Positions 10,802 through 54,157 of a stretch of DNA of 64,000 bases are shown here, one piece after another (positions within the stretch are counted from its first letter, which is position 1; each line of letters begins with the position of its first letter). This stretch comes from Alkaliphilus sp. NP8 (GTDB lineage Bacteria > Bacillota > Clostridia > Peptostreptococcales > Natronincolaceae). The notes under the pieces were generated by a model that was not told the origin of the DNA, did no database searches, and saw only the letters and a program-made list of their open reading frames with translations. Location of the stretch: positions 1 to 64,000 of the forward strand of contig JADWMM010000028.1 of NCBI GenBank assembly GCA_015978205.1, in the 5' to 3' direction. A program made the translations under genes and the position numbers.

Positions 10802-10840
10802 TTGTATTTAAAATTTAAAAGTTGTGATACAATTCAATTT

Positions 10841-11995
10841 TTATTTATTATTTTTTCCTGCTATTTTATCTACTAAAATCGAAATAGCACCATCACCTGT
10901 TATGTTAGCAGCTGTTCCAAAACTATCTTGTGCCATATATAATGCCATCATTAATCCTAAGTTAGCTTCTGAAAACCCTAACATTGAAGAAAGTAACCCT
11001 AATGCAGCCATAACTGCACCTCCAGGTACACCAGGAGCGGCTATCATAGTTACTCCAAGCATTAAAATAAATGGAAATACTTGCGCAAAAGTTAGTACTG
11101 TACCTTGTAATAACATTACAGCAATAGCACAAGTAGTAAGTGTAATAGTACTACCAGCTAAGTGAACAGTTGCACATAGTGGAATTACAAATTCTGCTAT
11201 TTCATCACTTACATTATTTTTCTTAGTTGATTTAAGAGTTACTGGAATTGTTGCTGCTGAAGATTGAGTTCCTATAGCAGTAAAATATGCAGGTAACATA
11301 TTTTTAATAGCTGCAAATGGATTTTTTCCAGAAACTGATCCAGCTAATAAATACTGTAAAATAATGTAACCTATATGCATTGCAATTACTAAAATAAATA
11401 CTCTACCAAACACTGCTAGTGTCTGGAATGCTTCCCCTGAAAATGCCATTTCTGCAAATATACCTGCTATATAAATAGGTAATAACGGAATAATTATATT
11501 TTCAATTACCTTTTCAATAATTCCTTGGAATTCATTCATAAACGATAACATTGTTTTACCTTTTATTGCAGCAATTCCTAGACCTAGCACAAATGCTGTA
11601 ACTAACGCTGCCATTACACCCATAATAGGTTCAATTTGAAGTTCAAATATAGGTGATATCTCTACTCCATTAGCTCCTATATCTGCTCCTGTTTTAATAA
11701 GTGAAGGTAATATGCTTCTTGCCCCTAAGAAAGCTAAACTACCTGCAATTATAGTAGATAAGTAAGCTAATCCTGCTGTAATACCTAATAACCTTCCTGC
11801 TTCGTCACCAAGTTCTGCAATACCTGGCACAATAAATCCTATAATCAATAGTGGAATTATGTAATTCAAGAATTGGCCGAAAATTCCACTGAATGTTATT
11901 AGGATTCTTGTAAGGATTTCGATTTGAGTCATCCCAATTAAAATACCTGCAATAATTCCGATTATAAGCCTTGGTAGTAATCCTATTTTCTTCAT
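10841..11995 (-). CDS. dicarboxylate/amino acid:cation symporter (DAACS family)
   Basis: A polytopic membrane protein of 384 residues with the GltP/SstT fold: eight or so hydrophobic helices, re-entrant loops, a Ser-rich motif (TAIGTQSSAATIPVTLKS) and the C-terminal core with MAAPGVPGGAVMAAL and MALYMAQDSFGTAANITGDGA. Family members import glutamate, aspartate, serine, threonine or C4-dicarboxylates with Na+ or H+. The substrate is not resolvable here. ATG follows GGAGAAG. It is monocistronic, bounded by terminators. Confidence 0.9.
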   Translation of the reverse strand: MKKIGLLPRLIIGIIAGILIGMTQIEILTRILITFSGIFGQFLNYIIPLLIIGFIVPGIAELGDEAGRLLGITAGLAYLSTIIAGSLAFLGARSILPSLIKTGADIGANGVEISPIFELQIEPIMGVMAALVTAFVLGLGIAAIKGKTMLSFMNEFQGIIEKVIENIIIPLLPIYIAGIFAEMAFSGEAFQTLAVFGRVFILVIAMHIGYIILQYLLAGSVSGKNPFAAIKNMLPAYFTAIGTQSSAATIPVTLKSTKKNNVSDEIAEFVIPLCATVHLAGSTITLTTCAIAVMLLQGTVLTFAQVFPFILMLGVTMIAAPGVPGGAVMAALGLLSSMLGFSEANLGLMMALYMAQDSFGTAANITGDGAISILVDKIAGKNNK

Positions 11996-12190: not shown

Positions 12191-13384
12191 CTATACTTTA
12201 TTATCCCATTTACTAAAAATTTTATTTAAGACATTTATAAAGTAATCTATATTATCTTTTTTTATAATTAATGGCGGTAAAAGTCTTAGTACATTACCAG
12301 AAGTAATATTAGCCAATATTTTATTATCAAATAATTCATTTTGCATCTTTTTAGGATCTTTTAATAAATCTATACCTACCATTAAGCCTTTACCTCTAAT
12401 ATCTCCAATGAAACTTGGAAACTGTTGCTTTAATTTTGACAGCTCATTATATAAATAAAAACTTTGTTCTTCTACATTTTCCATTATTTCTTCATATAGA
12501 ATATCTATGGTTTTACTTCCTAATGCTGCACTTAATGGATTTGGTGCAAAAGTAGTTCCATGATCCCCAGCCTTAAAATAATTAGAAATTTCTTCTTTTA
12601 CTAATATACCTCCTAAAGGTAGGCCTCCACCAAATCCTTTAGAAAACAAAAGTATATCCGGAGTTACATTAGTATGCTGGTAAGCAAATAGCTTGCCTGT
12701 TCTTCCCATTCCTGATTGAATCTCATCAAGACAATATAAAACATTATGTTTTTCACATAGATTTTTAGCATTTTCCATAAATTCTTTACTAATAACTTGT
12801 ATTCCACCAGACCCTAATATCGGTTCAAATAATAATGCAGCCGGATTATATTTAGCTACAATTGTTTCTAAACTGCTTAAATCTTCTCTCTCTAATTCAT
12901 AAACAGGCATATTTATAGTTGGAAAATCTTGTTGTATACTAGCCATTCTAGTTAGTTTTATAGCGCCTAAGCTACGGCCATGAAAACTATTCTTTAATAC
13001 TATTATTCCTTTTTTATTATTTGACTGTCCATACTTATGAATATATTTAATAGCTGCTTCTGTACTCTCGGTACCAGAATTTGTAAAAAAGACTTTTCCT
13101 TTATAGGTGTTTTTTGCAATTTTTCGTGCTAATTCTATAGCTGGTTTAGAATAAAATATATTGGAAATGTGTAAAAAATCTTTACTCTGCTTTTGTATCT
13201 CTTTTTGTATTTCAGAGTGACAGTGTCCTAATACATTAACTGCTAGCCCTGAAAACAAATCTAAAAACTCATTATCTTCCTCATCTGTTATAATCATACC
13301 TTTTGCATTTTTTACAACTATAGGTAATCTTTCATAAGTAGGAAGTATATATTCTTTATCTAAATTTATCCAATCTTTAGCCAT
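12191..13384 (-). CDS. class III aminotransferase, probable N-acetyl-diaminopimelate aminotransferase
   Basis: A PLP enzyme of 397 residues of the ArgD/acetylornithine aminotransferase type. It has the NSGTESTEAAIKY block, NSFHGRSLGA, the LDEIQSGMGRTG motif and the Schiff-base lysine in FSKGFGGGLPLG. By position it is the last gene of the asd-dapA-dapB-dapH operon. This makes transamination of N-acetyl-2-amino-6-oxopimelate to N-acetyl-L,L-diaminopimelate its likely job. Acetylornithine aminotransferase activity is the sequence-level alternative, since the two substrates are close and no arg genes are nearby. It follows dapH by 27 bases. Confidence 0.85.
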   Translation of the reverse strand: MAKDWINLDKEYILPTYERLPIVVKNAKGMIITDEEDNEFLDLFSGLAVNVLGHCHSEIQKEIQKQSKDFLHISNIFYSKPAIELARKIAKNTYKGKVFFTNSGTESTEAAIKYIHKYGQSNNKKGIIVLKNSFHGRSLGAIKLTRMASIQQDFPTINMPVYELEREDLSSLETIVAKYNPAALLFEPILGSGGIQVISKEFMENAKNLCEKHNVLYCLDEIQSGMGRTGKLFAYQHTNVTPDILLFSKGFGGGLPLGGILVKEEISNYFKAGDHGTTFAPNPLSAALGSKTIDILYEEIMENVEEQSFYLYNELSKLKQQFPSFIGDIRGKGLMVGIDLLKDPKKMQNELFDNKILANITSGNVLRLLPPLIIKKDNIDYFINVLNKIFSKWDNKV

Positions 13385-13411: not shown

Positions 13412-14125
13412 TTATTGTTGATCTATATCTCTAAGTGCACTTACTATTTCTGTTTTCCCTTTAGTTTTATTGTCTATATATTTTATAATCTTAGCAGGTG
13501 TACCTGCTACTACAGCTCCTTCTGGAACATCATTAGTTACTACAGCTCCAGCTGCTACTACGGCTCCTTTAGAAACTTTAACTCCTTCTAAAATAACTGC
13601 ATTTGCACCAACAACAACTTTATCTTCTATAATTACAGGTGTAGCAGAAGGTGGTTCTATAACACCTGCTATAACAGTTCCTGCACCTATATGACAATTT
13701 TTGCCTATAGTTCCTCTTCCACCTATTACTACATTCATATCTATCATAGTACCCTCACCTACAACCGCACCAATGTTAATTACTGCTCCCATCATAATTA
13801 CAACATTTTTACCAATTTGTACTTTTTCTCTAATAATAGCTCCTGGTTCTATTCGTGCATGTGTATCTTTAATATCTAACATAGGTATAGCAGAGTTACG
13901 TCTATCATTTTCTATTTCGTATTCTTCAATAAGCTCTTTATTTTCTTCTAAAAATCCTTTTACAATATTCCATTCTCCAAATATAGTACCTGTCTTTGTC
14001 TCTATAAAGCTTTTAAACTCCCACTTTTTCCAATTGATACTGCTTAAATCTCCTTTTACATAAAGCTTTACAGGAGTTTTTTTATTACTTTCTTGAATGT
14101 ATTTTATTATCTCTTTTGCATCCAT
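13412..14125 (-). CDS. dapH: 2,3,4,5-tetrahydropyridine-2,6-dicarboxylate N-acetyltransferase
   Basis: A 237-residue left-handed beta-helix acyltransferase. Residues 1-80 form the DapH-specific N-terminal domain ([20 protein letters not shown]). Hexapeptide repeats follow ([26 protein letters not shown] and [26 protein letters not shown]). It acetylates tetrahydrodipicolinate with acetyl-CoA, so this organism appears to use the acetylated branch to diaminopimelate for peptidoglycan and lysine. It lies between dapB and the aminotransferase in a tight operon. Confidence 0.93.
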
Positions 14126-33105: not shown

Positions 33106-33621
33106 TCAAGATTCAATCATAAAGCTATTAAAATATTCCTCACCATCAGAATATTTATCTTTCAATGTTCCCCATAAAATTGTAGCTCTTATATCACTAC
33201 TTAAATCAGCATCATCATAGCCAATATACGTAAGTGTACGCTCTGTTTCAATCATCTTTTCTTTATAATCGAATTTTACTGAACGTATGGTGAATACCTT
33301 ACATGAAAAATAATGACCACCATCAATAGACTGTCCCAGATGTTCAAACTCATATTTTGATGTATCGTATACGGTTATATTCTTTCCTTGCCACTGCCCT
33401 TCATACTGTTCAATTTGAATACCATCCTTCCCGTAGATAGCAGCCAGTTCATCTCTTAAATCAACACCAGAAGACCCGCCAGGTTTATAACTATTGAACG
33501 GTAGTTTGTAAACAACTGTTCTTTCTCCATTTTCAAGAGAAACGATTTTAAATTGAAATTTAATCATAGTAAAAATAATGATACATACTCCAATTAAGAT
33601 AACTTTTAACTTTTTATTCAT
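33106..33621 (-). CDS. hypothetical membrane-anchored protein
   Basis: 171 residues. A single N-terminal membrane segment (about 7-24, VILIGVCIIIFTMI) is followed by an extracytoplasmic domain with GGSSGVDLRDELAAIYGKDG and a DYKEKMIETERTLTYIGYDD stretch. Start preceded by TAGGAGA. No family recognised. It is one of several small membrane proteins in this accessory region. Confidence 0.6.
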   Translation of the reverse strand: MNKKLKVILIGVCIIIFTMIKFQFKIVSLENGERTVVYKLPFNSYKPGGSSGVDLRDELAAIYGKDGIQIEQYEGQWQGKNITVYDTSKYEFEHLGQSIDGGHYFSCKVFTIRSVKFDYKEKMIETERTLTYIGYDDADLSSDIRATILWGTLKDKYSDGEEYFNSFMIES

Positions 33622-35034: not shown

Positions 35035-36144
35035 ATGATCTACGTAGGCATCGACGTTGCCAAAGACAAGCATGACTGTTTTATTGTTTCCTCTGAAGGT
35101 GAAGTCATCAAAAATGTTTTCACTTTCAAGAATATCATCGATGGTTTTAAATCTCTGTTAGCAGCTATTCCAGATATTCCTAAAAACAAAGTAAAAGTGG
35201 GAATTAAAGCTACTGGACATTACAGCTTGAACCTTATGAGATTTATCACCGATAATCAACTACCCCTAGTTGTTCTTAATCCTCTTCAAACCAACCTTTT
35301 CAGAAAAGCTCAAACCCTTAGAAAAAGTAAGACGGATAAGATTGATGCTAAACTCATTGCTCATATGCTACAGTCAGGTAACTTTAACCCCCACTCAGAA
35401 TTATCATACCATCTTAGTGAGTTAAAGTCATTAACTAGACATAAGTCTAGGATAAAAGAAAATCTTTCAAAGTACAAAATCTCTCTCAATAGAACCCTCC
35501 ACATTATGTTCCCTGAACTGGCTTCTGTAGTGTATTATATTAATCAAAAATCAACTTATGCGCTCTTAAAAACCTTTTCTTCAAAGAAAGCCATTGCTTC
35601 TGCTCACCTGACCAAACTTACGAACATTCTAAAGAAAAATTCTAGAGGCAAGTACGGTAAAGACAAAGCTTTGTTGGTAAAAGAGACTGCAGTAAATTCT
35701 ATAGGTTCTGATAGTCGTGCCTTGTCTTTTGAACTTTCTCAAACAATCTCATTTATTGAACTCTATACTACAGAAATTGCTAAAATCGACACTGAGATTA
35801 AAGTTATAATGGATGAATTGAAAAGCCCTATACTCTCTATACCTGGGATATCTTATGGACTTGGATCAGTTATTCTTTCCGAAATTGGTGATATCAAAAA
35901 ATTTGATTCTCCATCTAAGCTGCTTGCATTTGCAGGTTTAGAACCCTCTACCTATGAATCAGGTAGATTTGTCGCTACTGACATGCGAATAGTTAAGCGA
36001 GGCTCCCCTTACCTTAAGTGGGCTCTCTTAGAGGCTGTACGGTTAATCTCCATGAGAGATAATACATTTAAAACCTACTATCAGAAAAAAAGAGCTAAAG
36101 GAAAGCACTACTATGTTGCAAATTCCCATGTAGCTAAAAAATAA
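35035..36144 (+). CDS. IS110 family transposase, probably inactive
   Basis: 369 residues with the RuvC-like N-terminal part (YVGIDVAKDKHD and SKTDKIDAKLIAHML), a helical linker, and the C-terminal transposase_20 domain with IPGISYGLGSVILSEIGD and the serine motif TYESGRF. Two defects are seen. The DEDD glutamate is replaced by lysine (VGIKATGHYS, where relatives have E; GAA to AAA explains it). The frame also ends in GCT AAA AAA TAA, while the next frame continues IIRVIHYLLTNNINF to 36200, as if one A were lost from a seven-A run. A -1 slip at the A run would restore the tail. Confidence 0.85.
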   Translation: MIYVGIDVAKDKHDCFIVSSEGEVIKNVFTFKNIIDGFKSLLAAIPDIPKNKVKVGIKATGHYSLNLMRFITDNQLPLVVLNPLQTNLFRKAQTLRKSKTDKIDAKLIAHMLQSGNFNPHSELSYHLSELKSLTRHKSRIKENLSKYKISLNRTLHIMFPELASVVYYINQKSTYALLKTFSSKKAIASAHLTKLTNILKKNSRGKYGKDKALLVKETAVNSIGSDSRALSFELSQTISFIELYTTEIAKIDTEIKVIMDELKSPILSIPGISYGLGSVILSEIGDIKKFDSPSKLLAFAGLEPSTYESGRFVATDMRIVKRGSPYLKWALLEAVRLISMRDNTFKTYYQKKRAKGKHYYVANSHVAKK

Positions 36145-48824: not shown

Positions 48825-49487
48825 TTATGCTAATGTTTCATTAAGAAGTTCTACCATTTTACGAGTAGTCTCACCAGCTACAGCTGCACAACGAGCTTTT
48901 CTTCTTGGGTCTCCATACTCTACTCCTTCAGCCTTCATAAACTTACCTACAGACTCTGCACATAGCTCTGACTCTGCAACTGTAGTAGTTAAACCTAATC
49001 CTTCTGGCTGGTATTGTGGGAATTCATGTTTCTTATACCATCTGATTAGTTCTCCTATTAATTTCTTTTGTGTATCGACATCTGCTACTGACCCTATACA
49101 ACTTGCAGCAACACCTAATGATCCACAAAGTGTTGACATACCATATCCTCCAGCTGCATTTGTAAATGCTTGAGGTGGAATTTGATTAAAAGGATATCCT
49201 ACTTCATCTGCTAGTGTACCGAAGAACCCTTCGGCTACTCCAACGCCTCAGCCTCCCATTTCTTTGTAACCATTATATGCCCTTGCTTCAACAGTTGCTG
49301 GATCTAATTTCACATACTTAAATGGCCATTGTGGTGCTGATGTAGATTCTGCTGTATCTACTGCTGCTGTTGTACATCCTGTAAGTACTGCTCCTAAACC
49401 TCCAGCCATAGCTACTCCTGCTACTGAAACTCCTGCTCCTTTTAGAAAATCTTTTCTGCTAATTTGTTTTTTTTCTAAATTTGACAT
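48825..49487 (-). CDS. probable selenoprotein of the C-GCAxxG-C-C family, Tat-exported lipoprotein
   Basis: One 221-codon frame interrupted only by a TGA at 49248-49250, read here as selenocysteine at residue 80. Residues 1-40 form a Tat-type signal (SRKDFLKGAG, then AVLTGC lipobox). Then EMGG-U-GVGVAEGFF begins the C-GCAxxG-C-C domain, with U where the family has its first cysteine. The other conserved positions follow in GGYGMSTLCGSLGVAASCIG, SELCAES and KARCAAVAG. All 36 codons after the TGA read as ordinary protein up to the next ATG, and a SECIS-like hairpin follows the TGA. The family is thought to be redox-active; the reaction is not known. A genuine nonsense mutation is the alternative, but is less likely. 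Confidence 0.85.
49216..49250 (-). promoter_or_regulatory. UGA codon and bacterial SECIS-like hairpin
   Basis: After the TGA (49250-49248), bases 10-32 form the hairpin GTA-(G)-CCGAAG-GGTT-CTTCGG-TAC. The stem is perfect apart from one bulged G, and the apical loop is GGTT, 20-23 bases after the codon. Bacterial SECIS elements recognised by SelB lie at this distance and have a GG- or GU-containing apical loop. The match is by eye. Confidence 0.8.
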
Positions 49488-49819: not shown

Positions 49820-50362
49820 CTATGCTAAAGTTTCATTAAGAAGTTCTACAGCTTTAGCTGCAACCTCACCAGCTACTGCTGCACAACGAGCTTTTCTTCT
49901 TGGATCTCCATACTCTACTCCTTCAGCTTTCATAAACTTACCTACTGAATCTGCGCATAGCTCTGACTCTGCAATTGTAGTAGTTAAACCTAATCCTTCT
50001 GGTTGGTATTGTGGGAATTCATATTTCTTATACCATCTAATTAGTTCTCCTACTAATTTCTTTTGTGTGTCAACATCTGTTACTGAACCTATACAAGTTG
50101 CAGCAACACCTAAAGATCCACAAAGTGTTGACATACCATATCCTCCCATTTCTTTGTAAGCATTATATGCTCTTGCTTTTACTACTTCTGGATCTATTTT
50201 TTTATACTTAAATGGCCACTCTGGTGCTGATGTAGCTTCTACTGTATCTACAGCTGCTGTCGTACATCCTGTAAGTACTGCTCCTAAACCTCCTGCCATA
50301 GCTACTCCTGCTCCTTTAAGAAAATCTTTTCTAGAAATTTGTTTGTTTTCTTTATTTGACAT
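49820..50362 (-). CDS. C-GCAxxG-C-C family paralogue lacking the selenocysteine segment, Tat-exported lipoprotein
   Basis: 180 residues from the ATG 7 bases after GGGAGG. It is closely similar to the selenoprotein next door: same Tat signal (5 residues shorter), same YKEMGG, same GYGMSTLCGSLGVAATCIG and the same tail. Exactly 35 codons, from the Sec region through NAAGG, are absent without disturbing the frame. The deletion ends share GGAGG. Without the first redox residue the protein may be a partner or a decaying copy. It lies upstream of the selenoprotein gene on the same strand. Confidence 0.85.
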   Translation of the reverse strand: MSNKENKQISRKDFLKGAGVAMAGGLGAVLTGCTTAAVDTVEATSAPEWPFKYKKIDPEVVKARAYNAYKEMGGYGMSTLCGSLGVAATCIGSVTDVDTQKKLVGELIRWYKKYEFPQYQPEGLGLTTTIAESELCADSVGKFMKAEGVEYGDPRRKARCAAVAGEVAAKAVELLNETLA

Positions 50363-50703: not shown

Positions 50704-51594
50704 ATGAACTTACAATATTTAAAAGCTTTTTTTGTAACTGTAAAATTAAACAGTATATCTAAAGCTGCTAAAGAACTTCACTTAACTCAACCTGGATTAA
50801 GTATGCAAATACAATCCCTAGAAAAAGAATTAGAATCTTCTCTTTTAATTAGAAGTAACAAAGGTGTTAAGTTAACAGAGGCTGGAGAAATAGTTTTTGA
50901 TTATGCTAATACTATTCTTTCCATGCAAGATAATATCGAACGTGATTTAAACAGTCTAAAATCTCATAAAAAAGAATTGTTAATTGGATCTTGTAAAGCT
51001 GTTGGAGAATATGCATTACCCTGTAGTATATACATCTACAAACAGGATTTCCAAGATGTAGATATAAACTTTGTAATTCATAATACTGAGAATATTGTTA
51101 AAAGCTTGATAGACCGTACTATTAATATAGGAATTCTTCATGGTGATAAAAAACATGAAAATATAATAACAGAAAAAATAACTTCAGATAAATTATTACT
51201 TGTAACATCTCTACCACTTATGAAAGATGTTATTACCATAGATGAATTTAAAAAATTACCACTAATTTTTAGGGAAAAAGGATCTGGTACCTATCACACT
51301 ATAGAAAAACATTTAAAGGCAAATAAGATAGATATTGAAGATCTAAACATAATATATGAATTAAACTCTATGGAAGCAATCAAAACTTCTGTATTGTCAG
51401 GAAAAGGAATTTCTTTTATTCCTGAACTATCAATAAAAAGAGAGTTAAAAGACGGTAATTTAAAGGAAATAAAAATAGAAGGATTAAATATAATTAATGA
51501 ATTTTTTATAGCTTACAGAAAAGATCACAATCTAAGTATTCACGAAAAAGACTTTGTTAAATTTATAAAATCTTCTAGAAGAGGATTTTGTTAA
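50704..51594 (+). CDS. LysR family transcriptional regulator
   Basis: 296 residues. The N-terminal winged helix (NLQYLKAFFVTVKLNSISKAAKELHLTQPGLS) is followed by a CysB/CbbR-like effector domain. It is divergently placed from the C-GCAxxG-C-C genes and convergent to a YeeE-type gene, which argues for control of sulfur or selenium genes. The effector is unknown. Ribosome site GGAAGGGG about 12 bases before the ATG. Confidence 0.85.
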   Translation: MNLQYLKAFFVTVKLNSISKAAKELHLTQPGLSMQIQSLEKELESSLLIRSNKGVKLTEAGEIVFDYANTILSMQDNIERDLNSLKSHKKELLIGSCKAVGEYALPCSIYIYKQDFQDVDINFVIHNTENIVKSLIDRTINIGILHGDKKHENIITEKITSDKLLLVTSLPLMKDVITIDEFKKLPLIFREKGSGTYHTIEKHLKANKIDIEDLNIIYELNSMEAIKTSVLSGKGISFIPELSIKRELKDGNLKEIKIEGLNIINEFFIAYRKDHNLSIHEKDFVKFIKSSRRGFC

Positions 51595-51613: not shown

Positions 51614-51661
51614 TAGCATTATAAATGACCAGTTATATATAACTGGTCATTTATAATGCTA
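51614..51661. terminator. bidirectional terminator, 24-bp perfect arms
   Basis: TAGCATTATAAATGACCAGT and its exact complement form a 48-base palindrome between the convergent LysR and YeeE-type genes. Confidence 0.75.
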
Positions 51662-52177
51662 TAAAATATATTTAAATAATATTTTACTTCCTATCCATGC
51701 ACCTACAAACATAAATGCTCCAAAAACCCATCCATGAAGAGAAAATGAAGGTATTGCACTAAAATAAGCTCCTATATTACAGCCAAAACTTAATCTAGTT
51801 CCATAGCCCATTAAAATTCCACCTGCTAAGCCAAAAAATAGTTGCTTTTTATTTTTTATATTCTTAAATTTAAATTCTGAAAAAAATAAAACTGATATTA
51901 AAGCTCCTATTATTATAGCAACAGAAATTAGCATTATGTTATTATTAAAATATGTTTGTCCCGAATCTAAACCATTATTATATACATTAAAATAATACCA
52001 GTCTTCAACATTTATACCCAATTTATGCAAAATTCCTACGCCAGCATATAAAAATGATGTACTGATTCTCCAAGCAGATCCAGTAGTAAATAACAAAATT
52101 ATATTTAAAATTGCTAAAATAATTCCACCTACCCAATATGGCCAAGGTTTATTATTAATTTTCGACTTTAAATTCAA
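51659..52177 (-). CDS. half-size YeeE/YedE family membrane protein
   Basis: 172 residues with four or five membrane segments. The C-terminal motif GYGTRLSFGCNIGAYFSAIPSFSLHGWVFG matches the Sulf_transp signature with its transport-relevant cysteine. Full-length YeeE (TsuA, thiosulfate uptake) has about 350 residues; this protein corresponds to one half. The partner half is at 52471. The TusA-like gene lies between them, and the three form an operon. It should import thiosulfate, sulfite or a selenium compound. Confidence 0.85.
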   Translation of the reverse strand: MNLKSKINNKPWPYWVGGIILAILNIILLFTTGSAWRISTSFLYAGVGILHKLGINVEDWYYFNVYNNGLDSGQTYFNNNIMLISVAIIIGALISVLFFSEFKFKNIKNKKQLFFGLAGGILMGYGTRLSFGCNIGAYFSAIPSFSLHGWVFGAFMFVGAWIGSKILFKYIL

Positions 52178-52225: not shown

Positions 52226-52453
52226 TTATTTAGCCTTTTCAATATAAATTTCCCACTCACCTTCACCAATTTCAATATAATCAATATAGTGTCCTTGTTT
52301 CTTAGTCCATTCAATTACATTAGTTATAGAACAATTATGATCTGTTTGCATAATTAATACGTCGCCTATTTTCATTTTTTTTAGTTTTTTCAATGCTTTT
52401 AATAAAGGAATAGGACATGCTTCAAACATACAGTCTAATTTATATTCTGCCAT
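52226..52453 (-). CDS. TusA/SirA family sulfur-carrier protein
   Basis: 75 residues with the active-site CPIPLLKALKKLKKM motif near the N-terminus (Cys about 13). TusA-like proteins accept persulfide (or selenide) and pass it on. It sits between the two YeeE-type genes, like YeeD next to YeeE in the thiosulfate transporter, so it probably receives sulfur or selenium from them. Confidence 0.9.
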   Translation of the reverse strand: MAEYKLDCMFEACPIPLLKALKKLKKMKIGDVLIMQTDHNCSITNVIEWTKKQGHYIDYIEIGEGEWEIYIEKAK

Positions 52454-52470: not shown

Positions 52471-53169
52471 TTATAAATCTGCCATTATGTTATTTTGTTT
52501 GTCATACCAATTTGCTAATAAATATAATGTGCTTAATGCAGTTAGTTGAATAACTAGTGCCGGGAAAAATCCTATATGCTTAGGTATATATATTGTCTTT
52601 GATGAAGATATGAATAACTTGTCCCAGAATTCAAAGTGATTGCTACTTAATACAGTTCCTATAATAAAACCAATTAAAACTACTACTTGCATAGCATATC
52701 CTTCTCCAATTCTAATTAACGTACCAGATGCGCACCCTCCAGCTATAACCATACCTATTCCAAATAAAATCGCTCCTAATATAGTATGAAAACCTACAGG
52801 ATGAATTTGGCCAGGCACATCTGCTAAAGAATAGTTTGCTATATTTCCAATTTGTATATATTGAAATATGCTAAATCCTATTGTAGATATAATTAATCCT
52901 ATTATTACAGCTCGAAATAATGACGTAGTTCCTACCATTATTGGATCCCTAAAGCTAGCAGCAAAACAAAATCTAGAGCGTTGCATAGTAATTCCAATCA
53001 TAATACCAATTGTCCAAATTATACTATATCTTATATTCGTATTTAAAAAATAATAAGCAATTATAAAAGAAATAAAACCTACAAAAAAGAAATAAGGCAA
53101 TTGACTTTTTTTAGGCTTTATTTCTTTCTGTCTACGTTTCTTTAGCTCTTCAATTTTATTAGATGACAT
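52471..53169 (-). CDS. half-size YeeE/YedE family membrane protein
   Basis: 232 residues with a basic cytoplasmic N-terminus (EELKKRRQKEIKPKKSQ) and about six membrane segments. Two cysteine motifs of the family are visible: RSRFCFAASFRDP (about 65-77) and GGCASGTLIRIGEGY (about 148-162). Likely forms one channel with the 51659 protein. First gene of the putative yeeE-tusA-yeeE operon, 33 bases after the LysR gene, with which it may be cotranscribed. Confidence 0.87.
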   Translation of the reverse strand: MSSNKIEELKKRRQKEIKPKKSQLPYFFFVGFISFIIAYYFLNTNIRYSIIWTIGIMIGITMQRSRFCFAASFRDPIMVGTTSLFRAVIIGLIISTIGFSIFQYIQIGNIANYSLADVPGQIHPVGFHTILGAILFGIGMVIAGGCASGTLIRIGEGYAMQVVVLIGFIIGTVLSSNHFEFWDKLFISSSKTIYIPKHIGFFPALVIQLTALSTLYLLANWYDKQNNIMADL

Positions 53170-53201: not shown

Positions 53202-54086
53202 TTATTCATATTTACAGCAAAAATCCATAAAGTTATTTATAAAATCAATTTCTTTATCGTAAAGATATACAAAGTTAAATTCTCTATTAATACAAAAATT
53301 ATCTATAGAAACAATTGATATTTTCCCTTGCTCTACTTCATTTTTTACTGCTTCTTTAGATATAATTGTGTAACCAATATTTGATTCAACTAAAGATATA
53401 ATAGCATTAATACTACCTAAGCTCATACACTTGCTTAATGTTTCTGTACTATATCCTCTAGTAATCAATTCTCCTTCAAATATTTCTCGTGTACCAGAAC
53501 CATGTTCACGAAGCAATAAGTTCCCTTTTAAGACATCATTTATAGTAACCACTTTTCTATTTGCAAACTCATGTTTTGAAGAAACCGCCAATACAAGTTC
53601 ATCATTTTTAAATTTCTTATATTTAAATTTTGTCTTATCAAAAGGTCCTTCTATTAATGCTAGTTCCACTTCTCTATCAATTAACTTTTTTAAAATAATA
53701 TTAGTATTATCTACATGTAAATCTATACTTATATTAGGATTATCAGTCTTATACTCACCTAATATAGGTGGAACCACATATCCACCAATAGTCAGCGTAG
53801 CAGCTATATTATGTCTTTTAATAGTAGGTGCACCACTTCGAAGACCTCGTTCCATCTCAGAAGATATATTACTTATTTCCTTAGCATACTGCAGGAAAAA
53901 TTCCCCTTCTTTTGTTAACTTTAATAATCTACCTTCTCTTTCTATAAACTTAGTTTCGTAATAATTCTCTAAAAACTGAATTTGTTGATACACTCCTGGC
54001 TGAGTTATATTAAGTATTTCAGCAGCTTTAGTAAAGTTTCTAGTTTTAGCTACAGTTATAAATGTTAAAATTCTAGAATCAATCAT
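53202..54086 (-). CDS. LysR family transcriptional regulator
   Basis: 294 residues. The helix-turn-helix LTFITVAKTRNFTKAAEILNITQPGVYQQIQFLE is followed by an effector domain. Start at the ATG after AGGTGA; a GTG three codons earlier is less good. It lies directly upstream of the yeeE-tusA-yeeE genes and probably controls them in response to sulfur or selenium status. Paralogous to the other LysR gene only distantly. Confidence 0.85.
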   Translation of the reverse strand: MIDSRILTFITVAKTRNFTKAAEILNITQPGVYQQIQFLENYYETKFIEREGRLLKLTKEGEFFLQYAKEISNISSEMERGLRSGAPTIKRHNIAATLTIGGYVVPPILGEYKTDNPNISIDLHVDNTNIILKKLIDREVELALIEGPFDKTKFKYKKFKNDELVLAVSSKHEFANRKVVTINDVLKGNLLLREHGSGTREIFEGELITRGYSTETLSKCMSLGSINAIISLVESNIGYTIISKEAVKNEVEQGKISIVSIDNFCINREFNFVYLYDKEIDFINNFMDFCCKYE

Positions 54087-54157
54087 TTTATTCACCTATA
54101 TTCATATTATTATTTTTATTATAACATATTTAAATTTTGATTGTTACAAAAAAAACA

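Follow-up and report, generated by a model that had tools for sequence, protein, structure and literature searches.

An in-frame TGA that very probably encodes selenocysteine in a probably exported, haem-less relative of split-Soret cytochrome c from Alkaliphilus sp. NP8

We analysed a 64-kb stretch of DNA from Alkaliphilus sp. NP8, referred to here as the window, in which two open frames on the minus strand are separated only by a TGA codon. The features of the locus are listed in Table 1. A sequence-only reading had joined the two frames into one gene with a 220-residue product, and the joined frame was confirmed: it begins with an ATG at 49487, downstream of an AGGAGG, runs through 79 codons that cover the signal and the start of the domain, passes the TGA, and continues for 140 codons up to the TAA at 48827-48825 without a further stop. 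That reading also held that annotation would normally show two broken genes, and the mechanical list of open reading frames (ORFs) indeed gives two ORFs of 79 and 104 aa in its place. Ordinary annotation would split the gene in two, and no listed NCBIfam model reaches its cut-off on the protein. Upstream of the gene lie a tandem paralogue, a divergent LysR-type regulator, two half-size YeeE/YedE membrane proteins flanking a TusA-like sulfur carrier, and a second LysR-type regulator.

Table 1. Features of the locus in the window (codon and residue numbers refer to the joined frame; Sec, selenocysteine).
Feature	Position	Strand	Basis or remark
Candidate selenoprotein gene, C-GCAxxG-C-C / split-Soret-type domain	48825..49487	-	220 codons + TAA
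TGA, codon 80, putatively read as Sec	49248..49250	-	frame, homologues, SECIS covariation
Predicted N-terminal export signal: SRKDFLKG (RK variant of the Tat motif), lipobox LTGC, Cys38	49374..49487	-	
Predicted bacterial SECIS hairpin, 7-bp stem including one G-U, loop GGUU	49218..49235	-	folding, covariation, covariance model
Cys121, second invariant Cys/Sec position	49125..49127	-	alignment
Cys176, third invariant position	48960..48962	-	alignment
Cys200, fourth invariant position	48888..48890	-	alignment
Tandem paralogue between LysR regulator and Sec gene	49820..50362	-	comparison with the Sec gene
Divergent LysR-type regulator	50704..51594	+	NF040786, 238.1 bits, best among the matches listed; below the cut-off of 250
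Half-size YeeE/YedE (Sulf_transp) membrane protein, second half of the Pfam profile	51659..52177	-	
TusA-like sulfur carrier	52226..52453	-	best match the thiosulfate model TsuB/YeeD, below cut-off
Half-size YeeE/YedE (Sulf_transp), first half of the Pfam profile, GGCASG motif	52471..53169	-	
Second LysR-type regulator	53202..54095	-	NF040786, 199.2 bits; cut-off 250

An open frame on both sides of a TGA is rare in this DNA. A TGA with at least 60 aa before it and at least 100 open codons after it occurs twice in the 64-kb window, and the second case, at 13692 (plus strand), is antisense within the open frame 13412-14125 (minus strand), which we take to be dapD-like from its translation. In eight comparisons of the codons past the TGA, dN was 0.15-0.43 and dS 0.41-1.54, with dN/dS of about 0.16-0.53. 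As judged from these codon comparisons, the part of the gene after the TGA is under purifying selection.

We then looked at the codon that relatives have at this site. A single-sequence scan of genome contigs found no relative, and an alignment-based scan gave 41 loci; in L076 the match is confined to the signal. Across loci L019-L106, the site is occupied by TGA in 47 distinct stretches and by a Cys codon (TGC or TGT) in 27, and no third kind of codon was aligned there, leaving aside the truncated paralogue and rows without coverage of the site. Note that these counts exclude the truncated paralogue, a fragment on contig C75 that holds the N-terminus only (L023), L076, the N-terminal side hits of L102 and L103, and repeats in overlapping loci (L021, L022, L034, L035 and L077), and that identical 60-base stretches were collapsed. 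The in-frame TGA therefore stands where homologues have Cys or TGA, as the sequence-only reading had expected of them. Since the same TGA recurs in many other genomes, it is not a sequencing error in this one.

The distribution of the protein was examined in three samples. Within Natronincolaceae, 11 of 20 genomes have it (the host included), and all 14 full-length copies contain exactly one TGA; proteins of four of these genomes are identical, in the part compared, to those of Anaerovirgula multivorans and three Alkaliphilus species. Matches at E ≤ 1e-10 were found in 53/398 genomes of the phylum sample, and at E ≤ 1e-15 in 24/393 genomes of the order sample. One TGA is present in 29 of the 30 near-full-length matches of the order sample, its place having been read for the fetched loci, which are the minority. 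The host genome itself has a second full Sec copy on contig C21 (L020, 1501-2151, minus strand) with 55% identity; this copy, too, adjoins a YedE/YeeE half pair. A haem-less branch with the Cys form was seen in Sedimentibacter, Anaerocolumna, Christensenella and other Clostridia (L061, L063-L066, L069, L070 and L072), and Sedimentibacter hydroxybenzoicus encodes the two forms, Sec (L056) and Cys (L061).

The hairpin downstream of the TGA was found exactly as first described, with a stem of 49235-49229 paired to 49224-49218 in which one G-U pair is counted, and a GGTT loop at 49228-49225 that starts on base 20 past the TGA. When folded as RNA, segments of 43 and 52 bases starting at the TGA gave -15.7 kcal/mol, with z values of -2.80 and -2.51, and a 71-base stretch gave a z of -0.89. 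Because folding energy alone is weak at the latter length, the SECIS claim is carried by covariation. In the TGA set (47 stretches, 7 pairs), 95.7% of 329 cells were paired and four pairs changed on both sides, with 17 doubly changed cells compared with 2.7 in shuffles. The covariation score was 0.274 versus 0.154 in shuffles; none of 500 shuffles was as high, and all slid versions of the pairing scored lower. Two pairing measures were moderately high only (12/500 and 16/500 shuffles). On the other hand, in the Cys set (27 stretches, same columns) 64.0% of 189 cells were paired, and the covariation of 0.262 was not above the shuffles (0.239; 85/500 as high); one of five measures, that of further pair types, did exceed them (17 vs 13.3, 8/500). 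The Cys set is an imperfect control, since kinship inflates the scores and this set is the more divergent, and the contrast between the two sets is nevertheless marked in these alignments. The proposal that the hairpin acts as a SECIS element thus held up: just 3' of the TGA there is a hairpin with a G in its apical loop that is kept by compensatory changes in the TGA set and far less in the Cys set.

Chance matches to such a signal are few. When the 64 kb were searched for a TGA followed by 8-19 bases, a perfect 6-bp stem and a loop starting with GG, three matches were obtained. Besides the Sec site, these were 35288 (minus strand), which is antisense in the frame 35035-36144 (plus strand), and 12338 (minus strand), which lies inside the frame 12191-13384 (minus strand), whose own frame has no TGA. 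The frame 35035-36144 is presumably a transposase, from a reading of its translation. A covariance model applied to the window and to three further stretches of this genome gave 80.3 bits for the Sec site and 70.9 bits for the C21 copy, both of which belong to its training set, and 10.7 bits for the next match. An Rfam scan of 49100-49300 at E ≤ 5 returned two matches, both far below their cut-offs, and none at the hairpin that reaches a cut-off.

The machinery for Sec insertion, which the earlier reading had proposed to look for, is complete in the host genome (2.67 Mb in 81 contigs, 92.6% complete). A tRNA-Sec with anticodon TCA scored 73.6 bits, above the gathering score, and SelB (372.9 bits), SelA (626.1 bits) and SelD (403.9 bits) were all above their cut-offs. 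The four genes lie together on a contig of 12,290 bases (C80), with a GC content of 0.282 compared with 0.288 for the window. The selD gene itself contains an in-frame TGA, in SSG-U-AAK (L016, 1399-2445, minus strand); Sec-containing SelD is a known type. Among 60 hand-chosen genomes, a set that leaves out those with weaker TGA-bearing matches only (e.g., G099 and G044), selA above the cut-off was found in 21/22 genomes with the TGA form, 25/29 with the Cys form and 7/9 same-family genomes without the protein. The one TGA-form genome in which no selA was found, G187, is 90% complete. The co-occurrence with selA discriminates little, because most Cys-form genomes have selA too.

Taken on these sequence data, the reading of the TGA at codon 80 as Sec is strongly supported, and two other readings of the codon have to be weighed against it. 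The TGA could be a true stop, either in a pseudogene or between two genes, the second of which would start from an internal ATG (49139); the two entries in the ORF list and the shortened tandem copy next door fit such a stop. It is contradicted by the recurrence of the TGA at this very codon across many genomes, by purifying selection on both sides of the TGA, by the covariation of the SECIS hairpin and by a conserved segment between the TGA and the internal ATG, and we regard it as very improbable. Even less credible to us is a genome-wide reassignment of TGA as an ordinary sense codon, for example for Trp. What speaks for it is the scarcity of TGA as a stop, since 47 non-overlapping ORFs of at least 150 aa in the window end in 39 TAA, 7 TAG and 1 TGA. 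Frames ended by TGA lie at 10824-11165 (plus strand) and 33106-33621 (minus strand). However, the other in-frame TGA candidates inspected (13692 +, 35288 -, 56507 + and 26071 +) are antisense to other frames, relatives have Cys and never Trp at the site, and the genome has a full Sec system.

The N-terminus had been taken for a Tat lipoprotein signal. The lipobox LTGC with its Cys was found, and TatC is present in the host genome (227.8 bits), but the twin-arginine motif is RK and not the canonical RR. At the second arginine position, K occurs in 32, R in 24, and another residue or a gap in 7 of 63 aligned rows. Export by the Tat route is therefore likely, as far as can be told from these motifs.

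The assignment to the C-GCAxxG-C-C family was correct and can be refined. The protein matches the Pfam model C_GCAxxG_C_C (PF09719) with 33.7 bits (cut-off 27) over residues 85-213, and it is not listed at E ≤ 0.001 for NCBIfam TIGR01909 (cut-off 47.4 bits). The best NCBIfam model is that of split-Soret cytochrome c, NF047622 (99.4 bits, E 2.3e-28), below its cut-off of 400. When the PDB was searched by sequence, the sole relative at E ≤ 1 was 1h21 (3e-15), the split-Soret cytochrome c of Desulfovibrio desulfuricans ATCC 27774, whose Cys residues align with positions 80, 121, 176 and 200. An AlphaFold model, for which Cys was put in place of Sec, had a mean pLDDT of 86.8; in blocks of ten residues the values were at least 95 from residue 51 on, except for one block of 83, and at most 61 in the first 50 residues. 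This predicted model again retrieved 1h21 first, both with Foldseek (E 9.1e-11) and with VIA-align (Z 26.3 over 175 residues, rmsd 3.1), and no other fold was prominent in the VIA-align listing, where the next row had a Z of 3.8. The modelled protein thus has the fold of 1h21.

In an alignment of 63 rows (62 of the 75 listed relatives and the window protein), eleven columns are invariant in 63/63 sequences, and four of these are the Cys/Sec positions 80, 121, 176 and 200. By alignment, Sec80 is at one of four invariant Cys positions. The earlier statement that the TGA sits at the first conserved Cys agrees with the alignments to relatives and to 1h21, while the Pfam match begins at residue 85, after the TGA. 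Although the fold is the same and the four Cys positions align, the window protein differs from the Desulfovibrio cytochrome in having Sec for the first Cys, in having a lipobox, and in having no CxxCH haem motif, two of which are needed for split-Soret cytochrome c. Within C-GCAxxG-C-C, it is more aptly placed in a branch of the split-Soret cytochrome c fold that lacks haem. A 2003 paper on the split-Soret protein is said to describe a possible [2Fe-2S] centre bound by Cys.

Since 11 of the 47 TGA stretches lie in longer proteins with two CxxCH motifs, the Sec site is found in haem-less lipoproteins and diheme cytochrome-like proteins alike. The diheme loci with TGA are L062, L067, L071, L073, L074, L083, L084 and L086-L089, L085 being left out because its stretch is identical to one already counted. 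Against the split-Soret model, L062 and L083 scored 177.9 and 150.6 bits, below the cut-off of 400. A SECIS-like hairpin is present at the Sec site of these split-Soret-like diheme proteins, which are probably selenocytochromes, judging from their genes. In one Dethiobacter locus (L062), the gene lies among cytochrome c7/c3 and NapC/NirT-type genes. A tree of 76 rows, built by a quick method and with 25 of 73 inner branches open, implies at least three changes between Sec and Cys and at least three changes of haem content, the direction of which cannot be told from it.

Next, we examined the neighbourhood of the relatives. Both YeeE/YedE halves in the window score best against the selenium model NF033796, below its curated cut-off. 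A LysR relative is adjacent in 10/10 same-family loci (L024-L033), and a YeeE half is at the edge of 7/10 of these, where the flanks are 1.5 kb; neither LysR nor YeeE occurs in the flanks of L034 and L035, which are tandem second copies. The full YedE-TusA-YeeE-LysR set was found in L036, L040, L042, L044, L046, L049 and L053, which have longer flanks. These loci are not independent, as six of the seven encode proteins identical to those of same-family loci. No YeeE, TusA or LysR neighbour was found within the flanks, some of them short, of 30 of the 41 loci L036-L076, TGA forms among them. Neighbours at loci without the set are diverse, for example genes for MrpORP-like and superoxide-dismutase-like proteins (L041), pyruvate phosphate dikinase and cobalamin adenosyltransferase (L043), or a weakly ferritin-like protein and acetolactate synthase (L048). 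According to the available parts of two studies, thiosulfate is imported by YeeE/YedE proteins, whose TusA-like partners are believed to accept the sulfur, and selenium by a YedE-like protein of one archaeon (PMC11582611, PMC5322559). Among known gene sets, the YedE/LysR_Se set of selenium metabolism (PMC5322559) is close, in that the regulator and the transporter halves in the window score best against the selenium models NF040786 and NF033796, respectively; the transporter here is, however, in two halves, and the scores are below the cut-offs. For this lineage, then, a connection with uptake is plausible, but it is no rule for the whole family, because of the 30 loci without such neighbours.

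We consider it highly probable that the two frames are one gene whose UGA at codon 80 would be read as Sec, with SelB bound to the GGUU-loop hairpin delivering tRNA-Sec. The product would be exported already folded, probably by Tat, and anchored as a lipoprotein, and Sec80, Cys121, Cys176 and Cys200 would form a redox centre, made up of iron or else of selenol/thiol pairs, which would pass electrons along at the outer face of the membrane. A metal centre would go well with export of the folded protein. The unity of the gene, the exchange of TGA and Cys, the SECIS covariation, the Sec machinery and the kinship of fold can be read directly from the sequences. It is thus very likely that this anaerobic bacterium produces a redox protein for export in which Sec takes one of four fixed positions. 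From there we infer that selenium is in the protein, and likewise its export route, the chemistry of its centre, its substrate and its role beside sulfur/selenium uptake. The most likely role is that of an exported redox or electron-transfer lipoprotein, or of a reducer of a sulfur or selenium compound, on the outer face.

Sec could also be inserted into a protein that works as a reductase-like thiol/selenol enzyme instead of a metal-centre electron carrier. This would agree with the Pfam label of the family, 'putative redox-active', with reviews whose available parts assign most selenoproteins to redox functions and most characterised ones to a thioredoxin-like fold with a redox motif, and with the TusA and YeeE/YedE neighbours, which belong to families that handle sulfur and selenium (in the part of PMC11582611 available). 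However, the invariant Cys/Sec positions are four and not two and are spread across the domain, and the nearest solved fold is a cytochrome, its novel iron centre being known here from the title of 1h21 only; we give such an enzyme a considerable chance, short of even. The protein may alternatively be the outer partner of a split YeeE/YedE-TusA system for selenium or sulfur uptake under a selenium-responsive LysR. The adjacent LysR and YeeE genes of the same-family loci, the seven longer-flank loci with the full set (with the dependence noted above), the YedE/YeeE pair beside the C21 copy and the 238.1 bits of the regulator against a model of selenium metabolism (cut-off 250) all point that way, but the lack of these neighbours in most of loci L036-L076, TGA forms included, does not, and we hold the partnership to be possible without expecting it. 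For the electron carrier that we prefer, a more specific and rather unlikely proposal is that Sec80 would naturally supply a selenolate ligand to an iron(-sulfur) centre located at the four Cys positions, in a Bacillota lineage with haem-less and diheme forms. If true, this would be a selenium-tuned electron-transfer iron centre in a protein that is neither a hydrogenase nor a molybdenum/tungsten enzyme and that leaves the cell with its cofactor in place.

Sec in the C-GCAxxG-C-C family is already on record: selenoprotein inventories list it and the title of NCBIfam TIGR01909 contains '(seleno)protein'. In the available parts of the two inventories, C-GCAxxG-C-C selenoproteins appear as forms 1 and 2 (PMC13188914) and as one form (PMC9312934); the table rows for the forms give '-' as the Sec motif and one accession per form, WP_012158890.1 for form 2. 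The window protein belongs to the same PF09719 family, for which Sec had thus been predicted there before. A table row in PMC13188914, as far as available, also predicts Sec in a c-type cytochrome, the multihaem ExtKL, which is of a different family. The literature searched, covered in part, contains no mention of the position of the Sec, of kinship to the split-Soret iron centre or of diheme Sec forms. Less expected are the diheme relatives with TGA at the Sec site and the tandem copy that lost the Sec segment. The 47 stretches with TGA and hairpin, the 63-row alignment and the diheme TGA relatives provide the basis for a curated model. Connecting this 'redox-active' selenoprotein family, so far loosely defined, to a solved iron-centre fold would make the role of its Sec accessible to spectroscopy.

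Compared with the Sec gene, the tandem paralogue is short of 35 residues in frame, the Sec site among them, and of five residues of the signal, and it keeps the other three Cys. GGAGG is found at both borders of the missing segment, which is the trace expected of a deletion between short repeats. Over the 179 remaining codons dN/dS was 0.35, a value that includes the time before the deletion. An assembly fault may be the source of the short paralogue. The two other genomes of the genus have both tandem copies intact but for the TGA.
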